64,000 nt of DNA from Liolophura sinensis (Eukaryota; Mollusca; Polyplacophora; Chitonida; Chitonidae): positions 9,052,001-9,116,000 of the forward strand of contig NC_088300.1 of NCBI RefSeq assembly GCF_032854445.1, in the 5' to 3' direction. Position 1 is the stretch's first letter. The number at the start of each line of letters is the position of its first letter. Shown here in pieces: positions 55,101-59,476 of the stretch. Under the pieces are notes generated by a model. It did not search any database, was not told the DNA's origin, and worked only from the letters and a program-made list of their open reading frames with translations. The position numbers and the translations under genes were made by a program.

Positions 55101-57938
55101 GTATAGGTTATGTTTCTACCTGTATATTGTGCATGTTTATTATATACAAATTGTGTTCCGAGAATTAATGATATGAAATATTACCAGAACTGCAATAAAA
55201 ACAGCTGGTTTGTGTGGTTTGTGACTCATCATGTCTAAACTCCTTCCGCAGCAGAAGCAGTGCGTTGTGTAAGCCAGAAATTGATGACTTCTAGGCAAAA
55301 TACCAGCTTGTGGACCTGTAGTAATTGTTGTTTTATGTTGGGCACCCACACTGGCTGAGTTTCTCTGCTTGTTACCAGATTAGGGTCGGGTTATGCTTGT
55401 ACAGTTTTCAGTGGATTTTCCTGAACAGTGTTGACCACATCCTTTTGTGGTTAGGTTGTTGGTGGTGTTGTTGTTGGGTTAGGTGATGGAGGGGGTCAGT
55501 GAGGGTGAAGCCACCTGCTGTGTGTTGATAGGATAAGAGACAACGACTTCTGCAGATCAGCATTGCTCAATCTCCTTGCAGCTTTCAGGATTACCTGATA
55601 ATCTTGTGAATCCCCTGCTCTGATTTTCTCTTGTATGGCCAGAAAAGTCTGGATTATCTTCACAGACAAGCGTTTTTCTGTCAGTGGCGTCATGTTGTTA
55701 CCTTCGTCCAAAATTCCCGCCATTCCATAGGAGACTTTGAACTTCATGTCTAACACCTCTCAAAATTCAGTTCCTTATAAATAAGTAAATACATCCTCAT
55801 GTGGTTTCAGGTTTCAAGGATTCTTCTTGTGTTGTGTATGTATGATGTTGAATCCATCTCTAATAATGTTACTGGCTATACAAGAACAGCTACATGTACA
55901 GTGTACCAGTACATCACAGCCCTTTGTTAGACATTTTGAGTGTACCAATTTACATGTAGCTTCTGCTGCTACTCGGTGAATTCACAAAAATCATGTTTTC
56001 CTTCATTCTTATTTAAACCACGCTCCTGTGAAATGTTCCAATATAGAAATTCTTGAGATCTTAAAAATACCAAAAGAAAAGCAGAAACCAACACACAAAT
56101 AAATAAATAAATAAATTATACTATACTCTTTGAAGACATCATTCAGTCATTCAGTTTGCTTCCAGTGTTTGATAAAAAATATCAGACAGTCAAGCGGAAT
56201 ATTGCTTTGTTTGAGGAATCTGTGCAAATTAATACTAAATCAAAGCCTGAAAAAATAATACTTTTTAAATCACCAAAGTTAAATTTAAAGTAAATTGGTG
56301 CCATTAGTTCATAGAGTTCTAGCTCTCTGTACAGTGGAGAAAAATTGGCTGTGGTAGGGGATCTAATCAAGAGGTTTTTTTTATTCTATCTTTTATGAGG
56401 AAACACTGACAAGATTTTGTCTTAAACTGTAATTAAAAGTGTATCATGGATGCAAATTTAACACAACAGTTAACTCAGTGTGTTTGTATTTCTGTGGACC
56501 AGACCAGCATTGCTGTGGGCCAAGGAAGTGATTCAGGTTTCATTAATGAAACACACATGTACAGCTAAGTGTGCGCACACGCCTGCAATGTTACATGTCA
56601 ACACTACTGTCTGGAAACAAAGAACAGTGAGGCACTTTTGCGTGTCTTCCAGTGTACATGTTTTTTTTTTGGTAGGCTGTTATTAGTGAAGGAAGCCTAC
56701 TGTTACATGGCAGGGAAATACATGTATGGTGCAGGAAATGAAATATGCTGCAGGTTTATAGTCTGTACCCAGTGACTTTGTTGGGCCTGGGAATGGAAAC
56801 TGTAGCTGCCAAGTGGGTAGAAGTGTTTGGGATGACAGTGTGGTGGCCTAGCTGTGCTTAACAGTTATTCCAGGGAAGTTACATAGGTCAAGTTACGCAA
56901 GGACAGATATGACAACATCCACATGATTTATGACCTCCTTTTCTATTCCGTTCACTTTTTCCTTCTCAAATTGCTCAAGTTGTCTGGATTTTGTCAACAG
57001 TATTGCCAATAACATCTGGCGTCATTTAGTTCTAGTGCTGCAGGCTTTACACATGCGCAGTATGATCACATATGAATACATTGAATGCTGCAAAGAAATA
57101 CAAACACATAAGATTTTCCAACAGTAAAATCTATTACTTCTTCAGGCAAAATGTTGAATACATGCATATCAACAAGATATATATTATGATAAGAATTGTG
57201 TTCTGGAGTTAAACTCTGATGTTAAAGTTTGAGTACCATAAGTAAAAGATCTGCTTTATGCAAAGGGATAACCTTAACTGCTTGATAGGTTGTCATGATA
57301 GGTCTCCATGACTTTCCAGTGAAGCAGCATGTTCAGTGTCTGTTCCAAGGTTTTTTATCAGTTAGACAGCATTTCAGGTGTCTGCTAGGTGGTTTTCCAG
57401 TGAGGCAGCATATGAGGTGTTTGCTCATTGGTTTTGATGTCTGCTCTGTTGCGCTCTAGTGTGGCTTCATTCCAGGTTTCTGCAAGATGGCTTTCCAGTG
57501 AGGCAGCGTGTTTGATGTCTGCTGTATGGCTTTCCAGTGTGGCTTCACGTCAGATGTCTGCTCTGGTGAGGCAGCAGGTTTCGCTTTCCAGCGAGGTGTC
57601 GTGTCTGATGTCTGTTCCATGTAGTTTCTAGTAAGAAGTTACGTGTAGTGTCTGTTCTGTGTTTTTCACTGAGGTAGAATGTCCGGTTTCTGCTCAATAT
57701 TTTTAGTGAGGCAATCATGTTGCTTTTCGACATCAAAACATGATCATGACTTGATGAAAACAGTGATAAAAATCAAATATTACTTGGTAAACAATTAAGA
57801 CTATGATGTGTATGTCTGTCTGTTTTCAGACGGAGAGCACAAAGTTTATCCTGCAGTACCTGTGTTCTGTGACAAACCATGTGTCCATCTGGGTGGAGCA
57901 GCAGATCCTGGAGGCCAACACCATACTGGAGGCATTCG
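37130..57938 (+). CDS. Unconventional myosin heavy chain, N-terminal part of the motor domain (partial, five exons)
   Basis: Exons 37130-37157, 38409-38515, 50803-50865, 54225-54368 and 57830-57938 join in phase into 149 codons plus one base. Read in order they give [10 protein letters not shown], a lead-in [15 protein letters not shown] and [47 protein letters not shown], the P-loop [11 protein letters not shown], and [15 protein letters not shown]. This is the canonical start of a myosin ATPase head, normally followed by [15 protein letters not shown] (switch I), which must lie beyond 64000. The very short pre-motor extension and the sequence style suggest a MyTH4-FERM-like class (VII, X, XV or XXII). 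I cannot fix the class without the tail. Introns are long and repeat-filled. Confidence 0.9.
37158..38408 (+). other. Myosin intron 1
   Basis: From GTAATG to CTTGTTACAG. No repeat or second gene was recognised. A 116-codon minus-strand frame (37983-38333) has no support. Confidence 0.55.
38409..38515 (+). CDS. Myosin exon 2
   Basis: The acceptor CTTGTTACAG precedes GCTGCCAGCC. With the split Gly codon the exon encodes [30 protein letters not shown] and QRDEIY, then the donor TAT|GTATCC. GVxDM and NLKTRYxxxxIY are standard landmarks at the start of a myosin head. Confidence 0.87.
40476..40927. repeat. ~36-bp tandem repeat, about 12 copies
   Basis: The unit TTACATGTATTCACCGTAG plus TTCAGAGCCTTGACCAC repeats with substitutions in most copies (CACTGTAG, CACCATAG, CACGATAG). 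Confidence 0.93.
41140..41470. repeat. Degenerate ~23-bp tandem repeat interrupted by a SINE tail fragment
   Basis: Variants of GACCTCAGACTACAGCTTG recur about a dozen times. At about 41332-41362 the array is broken by GTAAAACACCAATCAAAATA, which is the 3' tail of the family A SINE. Confidence 0.75.
41870..42088 (-). mobile_element. tRNA-derived SINE (family A), diverged
   Basis: The plus strand shows TTAATTGATTAGTGTTTGG, then GCCGGCATTATGG, CCATCTGCAGGTTGCTGACA and TGGATTTGAACTCACAGTGA, ending near a degraded head. The order is the reverse of the 60402 copy. Confidence 0.75.
42645..45335. repeat. 66-bp minisatellite, about 41 copies, with a 520-bp higher-order repeat
   Basis: The unit runs GGCATATCCTGGCCCACAGC, CCTATTCCTGGCTTATCATG and TGAGAGATACACCTATGCTT before ATCAAA. 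It is 66 bases, with a few 62-base units lacking GAGA. Sites vary in a limited way (GCTTAT/GATTAT, CAAAGG/CACAGG, AGCCC/AACCT). Because 66 is divisible by three, two of the three forward frames stay open, giving a 536-codon frame. There is no start context, splice support or codon bias for a real protein. It lies in myosin intron 2. Confidence 0.96.
46014..46312. mobile_element. Two SINE (family A) fragments fused as an inverted pair
   Basis: The left half (46014-46172) is the element in minus orientation, TTTGATTGGTGTTTTATGCC through GACCATCCGCAGGCTGCTG. The right half (about 46185-46312) is in plus orientation, CAGCAACCTGCGGATGG through GTAAAACACCAATCAAA. Only a dozen bases separate them, so the transcript could fold into a long hairpin. 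Confidence 0.85.
48043..48716. repeat. 37-bp minisatellite, about 18 copies
   Basis: The unit is TGCTGACAGTCAGGAGGTTT followed by GTCAGGTTACTGGTACC. In the first third, units ending ACC and ACT largely alternate. In the later part ACATGCTGACAGTCAGAAGG dominates. Confidence 0.95.
50018..50175 (-). mobile_element. tRNA-derived SINE (family A), 3' part
   Basis: TTTGGTGTTTTACGCCATAC, TCAAGAATATTTCACTTATA and CCATTATGGTGGGAG lead to CCATCTGCAGGTTACTGGCA. The tRNA-like head is missing. Confidence 0.82.
50803..50865 (+). CDS. Myosin exon 3
   Basis: Twenty-one codons between ACCTTGTCTCAG and the strong donor CAG|GTAAGT, phase 0 on both sides. It encodes [20 protein letters not shown] plus Gln. The xNPYKxLPIY motif is specific to myosin heads. 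Confidence 0.93.
50866..54224 (+). other. Myosin intron 3
   Basis: GT-AG, phase 0. It contains one SINE copy (50958-51185). A 90-codon frame at 53205-53474 is unsupported. Otherwise no feature was recognised. Confidence 0.75.
50958..51185 (-). mobile_element. tRNA-derived SINE (family A), diverged
   Basis: TTATTTGATTGGTGTTTAAT, GACGGCCAGCGTTATAATGG, CACAGGTTGCTGACAGACC, GAACTCACAGCAACC and GGCTCCTGGGTCA follow the reverse order of the family. Confidence 0.8.
54225..54368 (+). CDS. Myosin exon 4 (P-loop)
   Basis: Forty-eight codons between TGTATTTCCAG and AAG|GTGAGA. It encodes [26 protein letters not shown], then [22 protein letters not shown] is the ATP-binding P-loop; the final Thr is the first codon of exon 5. 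Confidence 0.95.
55496..55756 (-). CDS. Unidentified 86-codon open frame inside myosin intron 4
   Basis: It encodes [38 protein letters not shown] and [17 protein letters not shown], which looks like a real amphipathic helical protein more than chance translation. A donor-like CAG|GTAATC follows the DSQDYQ codons, so only part may be exonic. I recognise no family. It could be a nested gene exon, a relic of a retrocopy, or chance. Confidence 0.25.
   Translation of the reverse strand: MLDMKFKVSYGMAGILDEGNNMTPLTEKRLSVKIIQTFLAIQEKIRAGDSQDYQVILKAARRLSNADLQKSLSLILSTHSRWLHPH
57300..57700. repeat. Degenerate ~50-bp tandem repeat next to myosin exon 5
   Basis: Blocks such as GGCTTTCCAGTGAGGCAGC and GATGTCTGCT recur about eight times with many substitutions and length changes. 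Confidence 0.7.
57830..57938 (+). CDS. Myosin exon 5 (after the P-loop, into the LEAFG motif)
   Basis: The acceptor CTGTCTGTTTTCAG precedes ACGGAGAGCACAAAG. It encodes [20 protein letters not shown] then [16 protein letters not shown] and the first base of Gly, followed by the donor G|GTAAGC. In other myosins the next residues are NAKT. The last 22 bases of this exon and its donor are the founder of the array that follows. Confidence 0.94.

Positions 57939-59476: not shown

Follow-up and report, generated by a model that had tools for sequence, protein, structure and literature searches.

In the chiton Liolophura sinensis, the donor splice site of exon 5 of a myosin motor gene falls inside the first unit of a minisatellite array that adjoins the exon and consists of 29 copies of the exon–intron junction region. 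The array lies in a 64,000-nucleotide stretch of DNA (NCBI RefSeq assembly GCF_032854445.1, contig NC_088300.1, positions 9,052,001 to 9,116,000 of the forward strand), which is the window analyzed here and to whose coordinates unprefixed positions refer. An original prediction for this DNA, whose implied exon numbers are kept below, took the donor junction of exon 5 as the origin of the array, a proposal with which the exon, the donor, and the in-phase join to the following switch-I exon all agree. The array is probably a neutral minisatellite, in which the exon-proximal donor would be the one used and the remaining copies would be tolerated decoys with some leakage.

Tandem Repeats Finder places the array at 57917-59462 (period 54, 29.0 copies, score 2238), and a count of individual units gives 29 arranged head to tail, with 28 spacings, 18 of 54 bp and 10 of 52 bp. 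Copy 1 is made up of the final 22 bases of exon 5 (AACACCATACTGGAGGCATTCG), the donor GTAAGC, and 24-26 further intron bases, a composition that fits the originally proposed unit of the last 22 exon bases, the donor, and about 30 bases of intron. The features of the locus are given below, a slash marking the exon–intron boundary here and throughout.

54225..54368, + strand: myosin motor exon 4, with P-loop GESGAGK and donor AAG/GTGAGA (Pfam Myosin_head match C6:9106201-9106371; boundaries and translation)
57830..57938, + strand: exon 5, 109 bases, phase-1 end (open frame, acceptor TTTTCAG, in-frame join to the exon at C6:9124232)
57917..57938, + strand: 22-base exon-derived segment that founded the repeat unit, recurring in 28 further copies with 0-3 differences
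57917..59462, + strand: the 29-copy array, with a unit of 52 or 54 bp (Tandem Repeats Finder and unit count)
57939..57944, + strand: true donor GTAAGC (phase and next acceptor agree; U1 duplex -8.2 kcal/mol)
57993..58106, + strand: donors of copies 2, 3, and 4 (57993, 58047, 58101), 9-mers identical to the true donor; use would lengthen the exon by 54, 108, or 162 bases, in frame
58118..58120, + strand: TAG in the frame of exon 5, past the copy-4 donor; would be included by donors 5 to 29

The exon that follows, which encodes switch-I, is located outside the window at C6:9124232-9124806, beyond an intron of 14,293 bp. It begins GA-AAT-GCC-AAG, and the final G of exon 5 together with this GA completes one codon, the join being in phase. 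A DNA search, which skips very common words, matched exon 5 and its donor only to the array locus and its copies; this single-locus match and the in-phase join lend no support to an exon 5 belonging elsewhere, a circumstance named at the outset as one that would undo the proposal. Exons 4-7, when joined, match Pfam Myosin_head with 381.6 bits (8.8e-114). Matches of the joined exons to solved myosins of classes II, V, VII, XV, VI, and X run from 1.6e-77 to about 1e-67 among the best 60 of 150, a spread that singles out no one class. Three of 15 MyTH4 matches make up two regions 65-82 kb further on along the same strand, which suggests a MyTH4-bearing myosin, provided that those regions are part of the array's gene.

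An assembly artefact or a pseudogene is extremely improbable. Nothing speaks for either except that tandem repeats are difficult in general. The genome assembly (609.5 Mb, 632 scaffolds) was built from HiFi reads with a mean length of 8,347 bp (PMC11068029; this paper and those cited for other systems are drawn on for the available portions of their text), and the animal sequenced was later renamed Liolophura sinensis (PMC12441733). Because the array of 1.5 kb is shorter than the mean HiFi read (8.3 kb), the window contains no N bases, and most array units differ from one another, an artefact, also foreseen as a possible refutation, is unlikely. A pseudogene is at odds with exons 4-7, whose frames are open and which align with Myosin_head for almost the full length of the exons. 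Two DNA searches bearing on the unit returned 12 and 27 matches, all inside C6:9109830-9111458 (very common words being skipped), and a dispersed repeat, whether satellite or transposable element, was rejected on this confinement. A coding repeat was likewise rejected, since the frame closes at 58118. Folding energies relative to mononucleotide shuffles are mixed (two stretches of three units gave z of -1.1 and -3.5, and exon 5 with one unit gave -0.9) and are not used in the argument.

The copies are far from uniform as donors. Pairing energies were calculated with the U1 5′ end taken from the chiton genome itself, ACTTACCTG; most of the 41 matches to U1 small nuclear RNA in that genome lie in a tandem cluster at C10:30033968-30099180 with a period near 2 kb. 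The true donor 9-mer, TCG/GTAAGC, pairs at -8.2 kcal/mol and recurs unchanged in five of the 28 extra copies (2, 3, 4, 7, and 16). The others comprise one TGG/GTAAGC (-9.2), four TTG/GTAAGC (-8.0), six TCA/GTAAGC (-4.5), and 12 with GC (-1.3 to -3.9). Thus G/GTAAG is kept in 10 of the extra copies, whose strength is close to that of the true donor, and replaced by the weak A/GTAAG in 6; GT is present in 16 of 28, and the donor dinucleotide over all 29 copies is GT in 17 and GC in 12. The expectation of a true donor followed by 28 near copies spaced 52-54 bases apart is accurate as to the 29 units, with spacings of 52 or 54, and overstated as to 29 donors. Counted with a weight matrix, sites at least as strong as TTG/GTAAGC number 10 in the array (1,518 bases, 6.59 per kb), 5 in the remainder of the intron (12,769 bases, 0.39), and 2 in intron 4 (3,461 bases, 0.58). 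The further idea that the array might sequester U1 seems implausible, since a single intron with some ten strong sites would face 40 above-cut-off U1 matches. Competition between donors and graded isoforms, both of which had also been proposed, may occur. Donors 2, 3, and 4, if spliced, would add 18, 36, and 54 residues with the frame kept. The 25 donors beyond them would all run into a stop at the identical codon, the frame being open only with donors 1-4.

Column diversity among copies 2-29 was used to look for constraint on the donor or on the exon-derived bases, and none was seen. Mean diversity is 0.100 in exon-derived and 0.106 in intron-derived columns (P=0.38). Variability at the donor 9-mer exceeds that in the remainder of the unit (0.168 vs 0.090), ranking sixth among 54 circular windows. 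Positions -2/-1 across the 28 extra copies read CG in 8, TG in 12, CA in 7, and GG in 1, variation that looks like the expected decay of the CpG in TTCGG. Copies 1 and 2 match fully across their 53 shared bases, which points to recent copying, and the 22 exon-derived bases are exact in copies 1-4 and 16. A steady age gradient away from the exon was rejected on the distances from copy 1 (Spearman 0.08, P=0.68). The pattern is taken here as suggesting recent copying at the exon edge and a drifting array elsewhere.

Similar arrays occur at other exons in this genome. Words starting with "tandem" are absent from the main text of the genome paper (PMC11068029), yet in 20 random 4-kb stretches from nine contigs, minisatellites with a period of at least 10 and at least 4 copies form 19 arrays over 10.8% of 79.8 kb. 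Exon edges were surveyed in 110 other exons (220 edges), representing 70 of 81 myosin matches and 40 of 132 kinesin matches. Thirty of the myosin exons had 1,500-base flanks and 40 had flanks of 350 or less, the 11 omitted including exons 4 and 7 of the array's gene; the kinesin exons were the first 40 without internal stops, with flanks of 300 or less. Two of the sampled exons, L005 and, by position, L071, belong to the array's own gene. Inspection by eye found junction-spanning arrays, with a unit containing exon sequence and the splice site, at nine of the 220 edges, six donors and three acceptors.

L022: donor, 66-bp unit, 7 copies in register, CAG/GTATGT, on C12
L090: donor, 31-bp unit, 12 copies within the piece examined, on C12
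L030: donor, 32-bp unit, seven intact CAT/GTGAGT including the true one, with three degraded units between
L083: donor, 140-bp unit, 3 copies
L068: donor, 124-bp unit, at least 3 copies
L073: donor, 104-bp unit, 2 copies
L055: acceptor, 95-bp unit, 3 copies, C1:67512143-67513028
L058: acceptor, 32-bp unit, 11 copies within the piece examined
L099: acceptor, 64-bp unit, 5 copies, AG lost in one

The weakest of the nine is L030, where the three degraded units separate the exon from the intact copies. An automatic spanning test did not return L030 or L058, which were entered by eye, and did return L063, which by eye has no exon bases in its unit and was left out. On C12 some 2.4 kb separates L022 from L090, two donor-founded arrays apparently in one myosin gene, and the array at L094 looks to be that of L090. 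L055 belongs to another myosin, in which the acceptor-spanning 95-bp array occupies the protein region corresponding to that of the window's array.

By the automatic criterion, 8 of 220 edges are spanned with at least 2 copies and 7 of 220 with at least 3. Random points are spanned by arrays of at least 3 copies in 99 of 982 cases (10.1%, locus bootstrap 3.8-18.3%), and an earlier random draw gave 111 of 989 points at 2 or more copies. A binomial test of 8/220 yields P=0.0003 if the random rate is treated as exact, a value to be read with a bootstrap range that almost reaches the observed rate. Arrays of at least 3 copies touch the 100-nt intron flank at 12 of 110 donors and 11 of 110 acceptors (23/220), compared with 12.5% of random points. 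Edge-spanning arrays thus do not exceed the chance rate, and may fall short of it, in a survey whose weak points are a small sample, edges defined as match ends, arrays clipped by the flanks, and family matching that favors intact exons. The generalization that minisatellites sit away from functional splice sites does not describe this genome, given the flanks touched and the edges spanned.

In all nine cases the exon is whole and the copies are on the intron side, the pattern that selection on the exon would leave. Extra donors are equal or nearly equal to the true one in L022, L068, L073, and L083 (those of L083 score higher on the weight matrix and slightly weaker in U1 pairing), and 6 of 7 listed extra sites in L030 match the true donor or nearly do. 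A general loss of decoy strength was rejected on these five cases; only in L090 are the extra sites, 11 in number, all weaker.

Two human loci already provide counterparts, contrary to the initial impression that no example had been described. In ABCA7, a variable number tandem repeat (VNTR) in intron 18 has a 25-bp unit that directly follows exon 18 and opens with the GT of that exon's donor, with copy number ranging from 12 to about 427 (PMC5954066). The donor of the second unit is used at a low level, the one-unit retention isoform amounting to about 2%, a steady-state figure after decay that depends on an inferred order of two published values (PMC5954066). Skipping of exon 19 varies from 12-45% by tissue and grows with array length, longer arrays are associated with lower expression, frameshifted isoforms rise when decay is blocked, and alternative transcripts together exceed the canonical one in 90% of samples from one brain region (PMC5954066). 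The ABCA7 array resembles that of the chiton in starting at the exon's own donor and directly following the exon, but its unit, by the text available, begins at GT without exon bases, and use of one unit is out of frame, whereas use of copy 2 in the chiton would keep the frame. Length variation and splicing have been measured in ABCA7, whereas the chiton array is known as sequence only. By analogy, ABCA7 is the best guide to the effects expected of the chiton array.

The CBS 31-bp VNTR, c.1444_1467+7(16_21), spans exon 13 and intron 13 in 16-21 copies (PMC2630376, PMC1395315), a notation read here as a unit of 24 exon and 7 intron bases. It would be founded as the chiton array is (24 + 7 vs 22 + 30-32 exon and intron bases), with a shorter intron part and in another gene. 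A link to CBS activity appears in the available text solely as a reference-list title and a table entry. In the CBS 844ins68 duplication, the distal of two sites is strongly favored and the rest of exon 8 stays intact (PMC2630376); this case differs in having two copies at the intron end, termed donors in the text and 3′ sites in a cited title. Tandem repeats at exon–intron boundaries are also recurrent in human segmental-duplication genes and can alter splicing, although these were identified by paralog comparison, as 27 curated intron modifications, and are not described, in the text available, as arrays of one donor (PMC2812944). Intron gain through tandem genomic duplication likewise copies splice-site-bearing sequence (PMC4974935), but the chiton copies sit in an existing intron and create no new one. 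In Caenorhabditis elegans, a minisatellite is over-represented near alternative splicing (PMC4039745). Since the ABCA7 and CBS arrays have been described, the chiton myosin array belongs to a known kind, as a new instance. No account of splice-site arrays as a common trait of one genome, or of chitons, was found among the papers listed in searches of a partial library, which is weak evidence of novelty.

The neutral reading implies a simple history. A 52-54 bp segment across the exon 5 donor junction would have been duplicated in tandem and the array enlarged on the intron side through ordinary minisatellite turnover, with copy 1, the exon and its own donor, left intact. Because a donor-spanning duplication preserves the exon and donor in this way, little harm would follow if copy 1 is used. 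We infer both this use and the lack of any selected function for the array. Copy 1 is most likely chosen by the spliceosome because it abuts the real exon, as in exon definition, and copies 2-29 would be tolerated, drifting intronic decoys. Some transcripts are probably spliced at copy 2, adding 18 amino acids in frame, and some at later copies, leading to a premature stop and decay. In the acceptor arrays the intact copy is the last one, likewise adjoining the exon. Exon-proximal use in both donor and acceptor arrays could not be accounted for by transcription order, and could be by exon definition; donor strength is no explanation in L022, L030, L068, L073, and L083, where extra donors about equal the true one. 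The preference in CBS 844ins68 for the distal site fits exon definition as well.

Several considerations weigh against the neutral reading. The use of donor 1 is a prediction from sequence. Among the extra donors, the ten strong ones tend to be closer to the exon (P=0.005, with copies that are not independent), as might be expected if they had been retained because they are used, and donors 2-4 are all in frame, as those of a regulated device would be. In simple constructs with duplicated donors, the intron-proximal site can be the preferred one, contrary to the assumption made for the chiton array. By analogy, the effects in ABCA7 caution against regarding an array of this design as harmless, and a tolerated array is not necessarily a silent one.

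Two functional explanations for the array have to be set against its neutrality. A length-dependent dampener, in which a longer array would lower gene output through decoy donors and decay or through skipping of a neighboring exon, is unlikely. It draws on ABCA7, where a longer array accompanies lower expression and up to 3.2-fold more exon 19 skipping (PMC5954066), and on the stop that would be included with 25 of the 28 extra donors. It is, however, an extrapolation from ABCA7 to a gene in which the next exon is 14 kb off and 12 of the 28 extra donors have GC. Graded motor isoforms, produced by regulated use of donors 2, 3, and 4 to insert 18, 36, or 54 residues just ahead of the switch-I stretch, are very unlikely. 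The identity of these three 9-mers to the true donor, their shared frame, and a first stop right past the fourth donor are what such a device would call for, but the insertions would split LEAFGNAKT, which is identical in the three solved-myosin alignments displayed, all of myosin II heavy chain. The identity of copies 1 and 2, moreover, means that the run of in-frame donors may be no more than a sign of recent origin, and no constraint is visible among copies 2-29.

A broader proposition is that splice-site arrays are recurrent here, at several percent of exon edges and at donors and acceptors alike, and that some of them, including the myosin array, give graded in-frame isoforms or tune output by copy number. 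Taken as a whole this is quite unlikely; if true, it would make minisatellite turnover a dial on splicing. Spliceosome choice has classically been tested with duplicated splice sites, and the chiton array amounts to a natural experiment on it. If about 4% of exon edges in one genome bear arrays of near-identical sites, as in the 220-edge sample, the RNA reads generated for annotation could reveal, across many exons, whether position, strength, or transcription order is the rule. Extra donors have about the strength of the true one in five of the six other donor cases, and strength alone could not rule there if the exon-proximal site is used.

Repeats flank exon 5 on both sides, with degenerate 39-bp tandem repeats upstream at 57359-57562. 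Five further large minisatellites in the window lie at 1-1108, 24826-25232, 40483-40930, 42641-45335, and 48044-48713, with units of 80, 19, 37, 66, and 37 bp, respectively. The window also contains a long open frame on the minus strand at 4024-5937, whose product resembles a BTB/Kelch protein.

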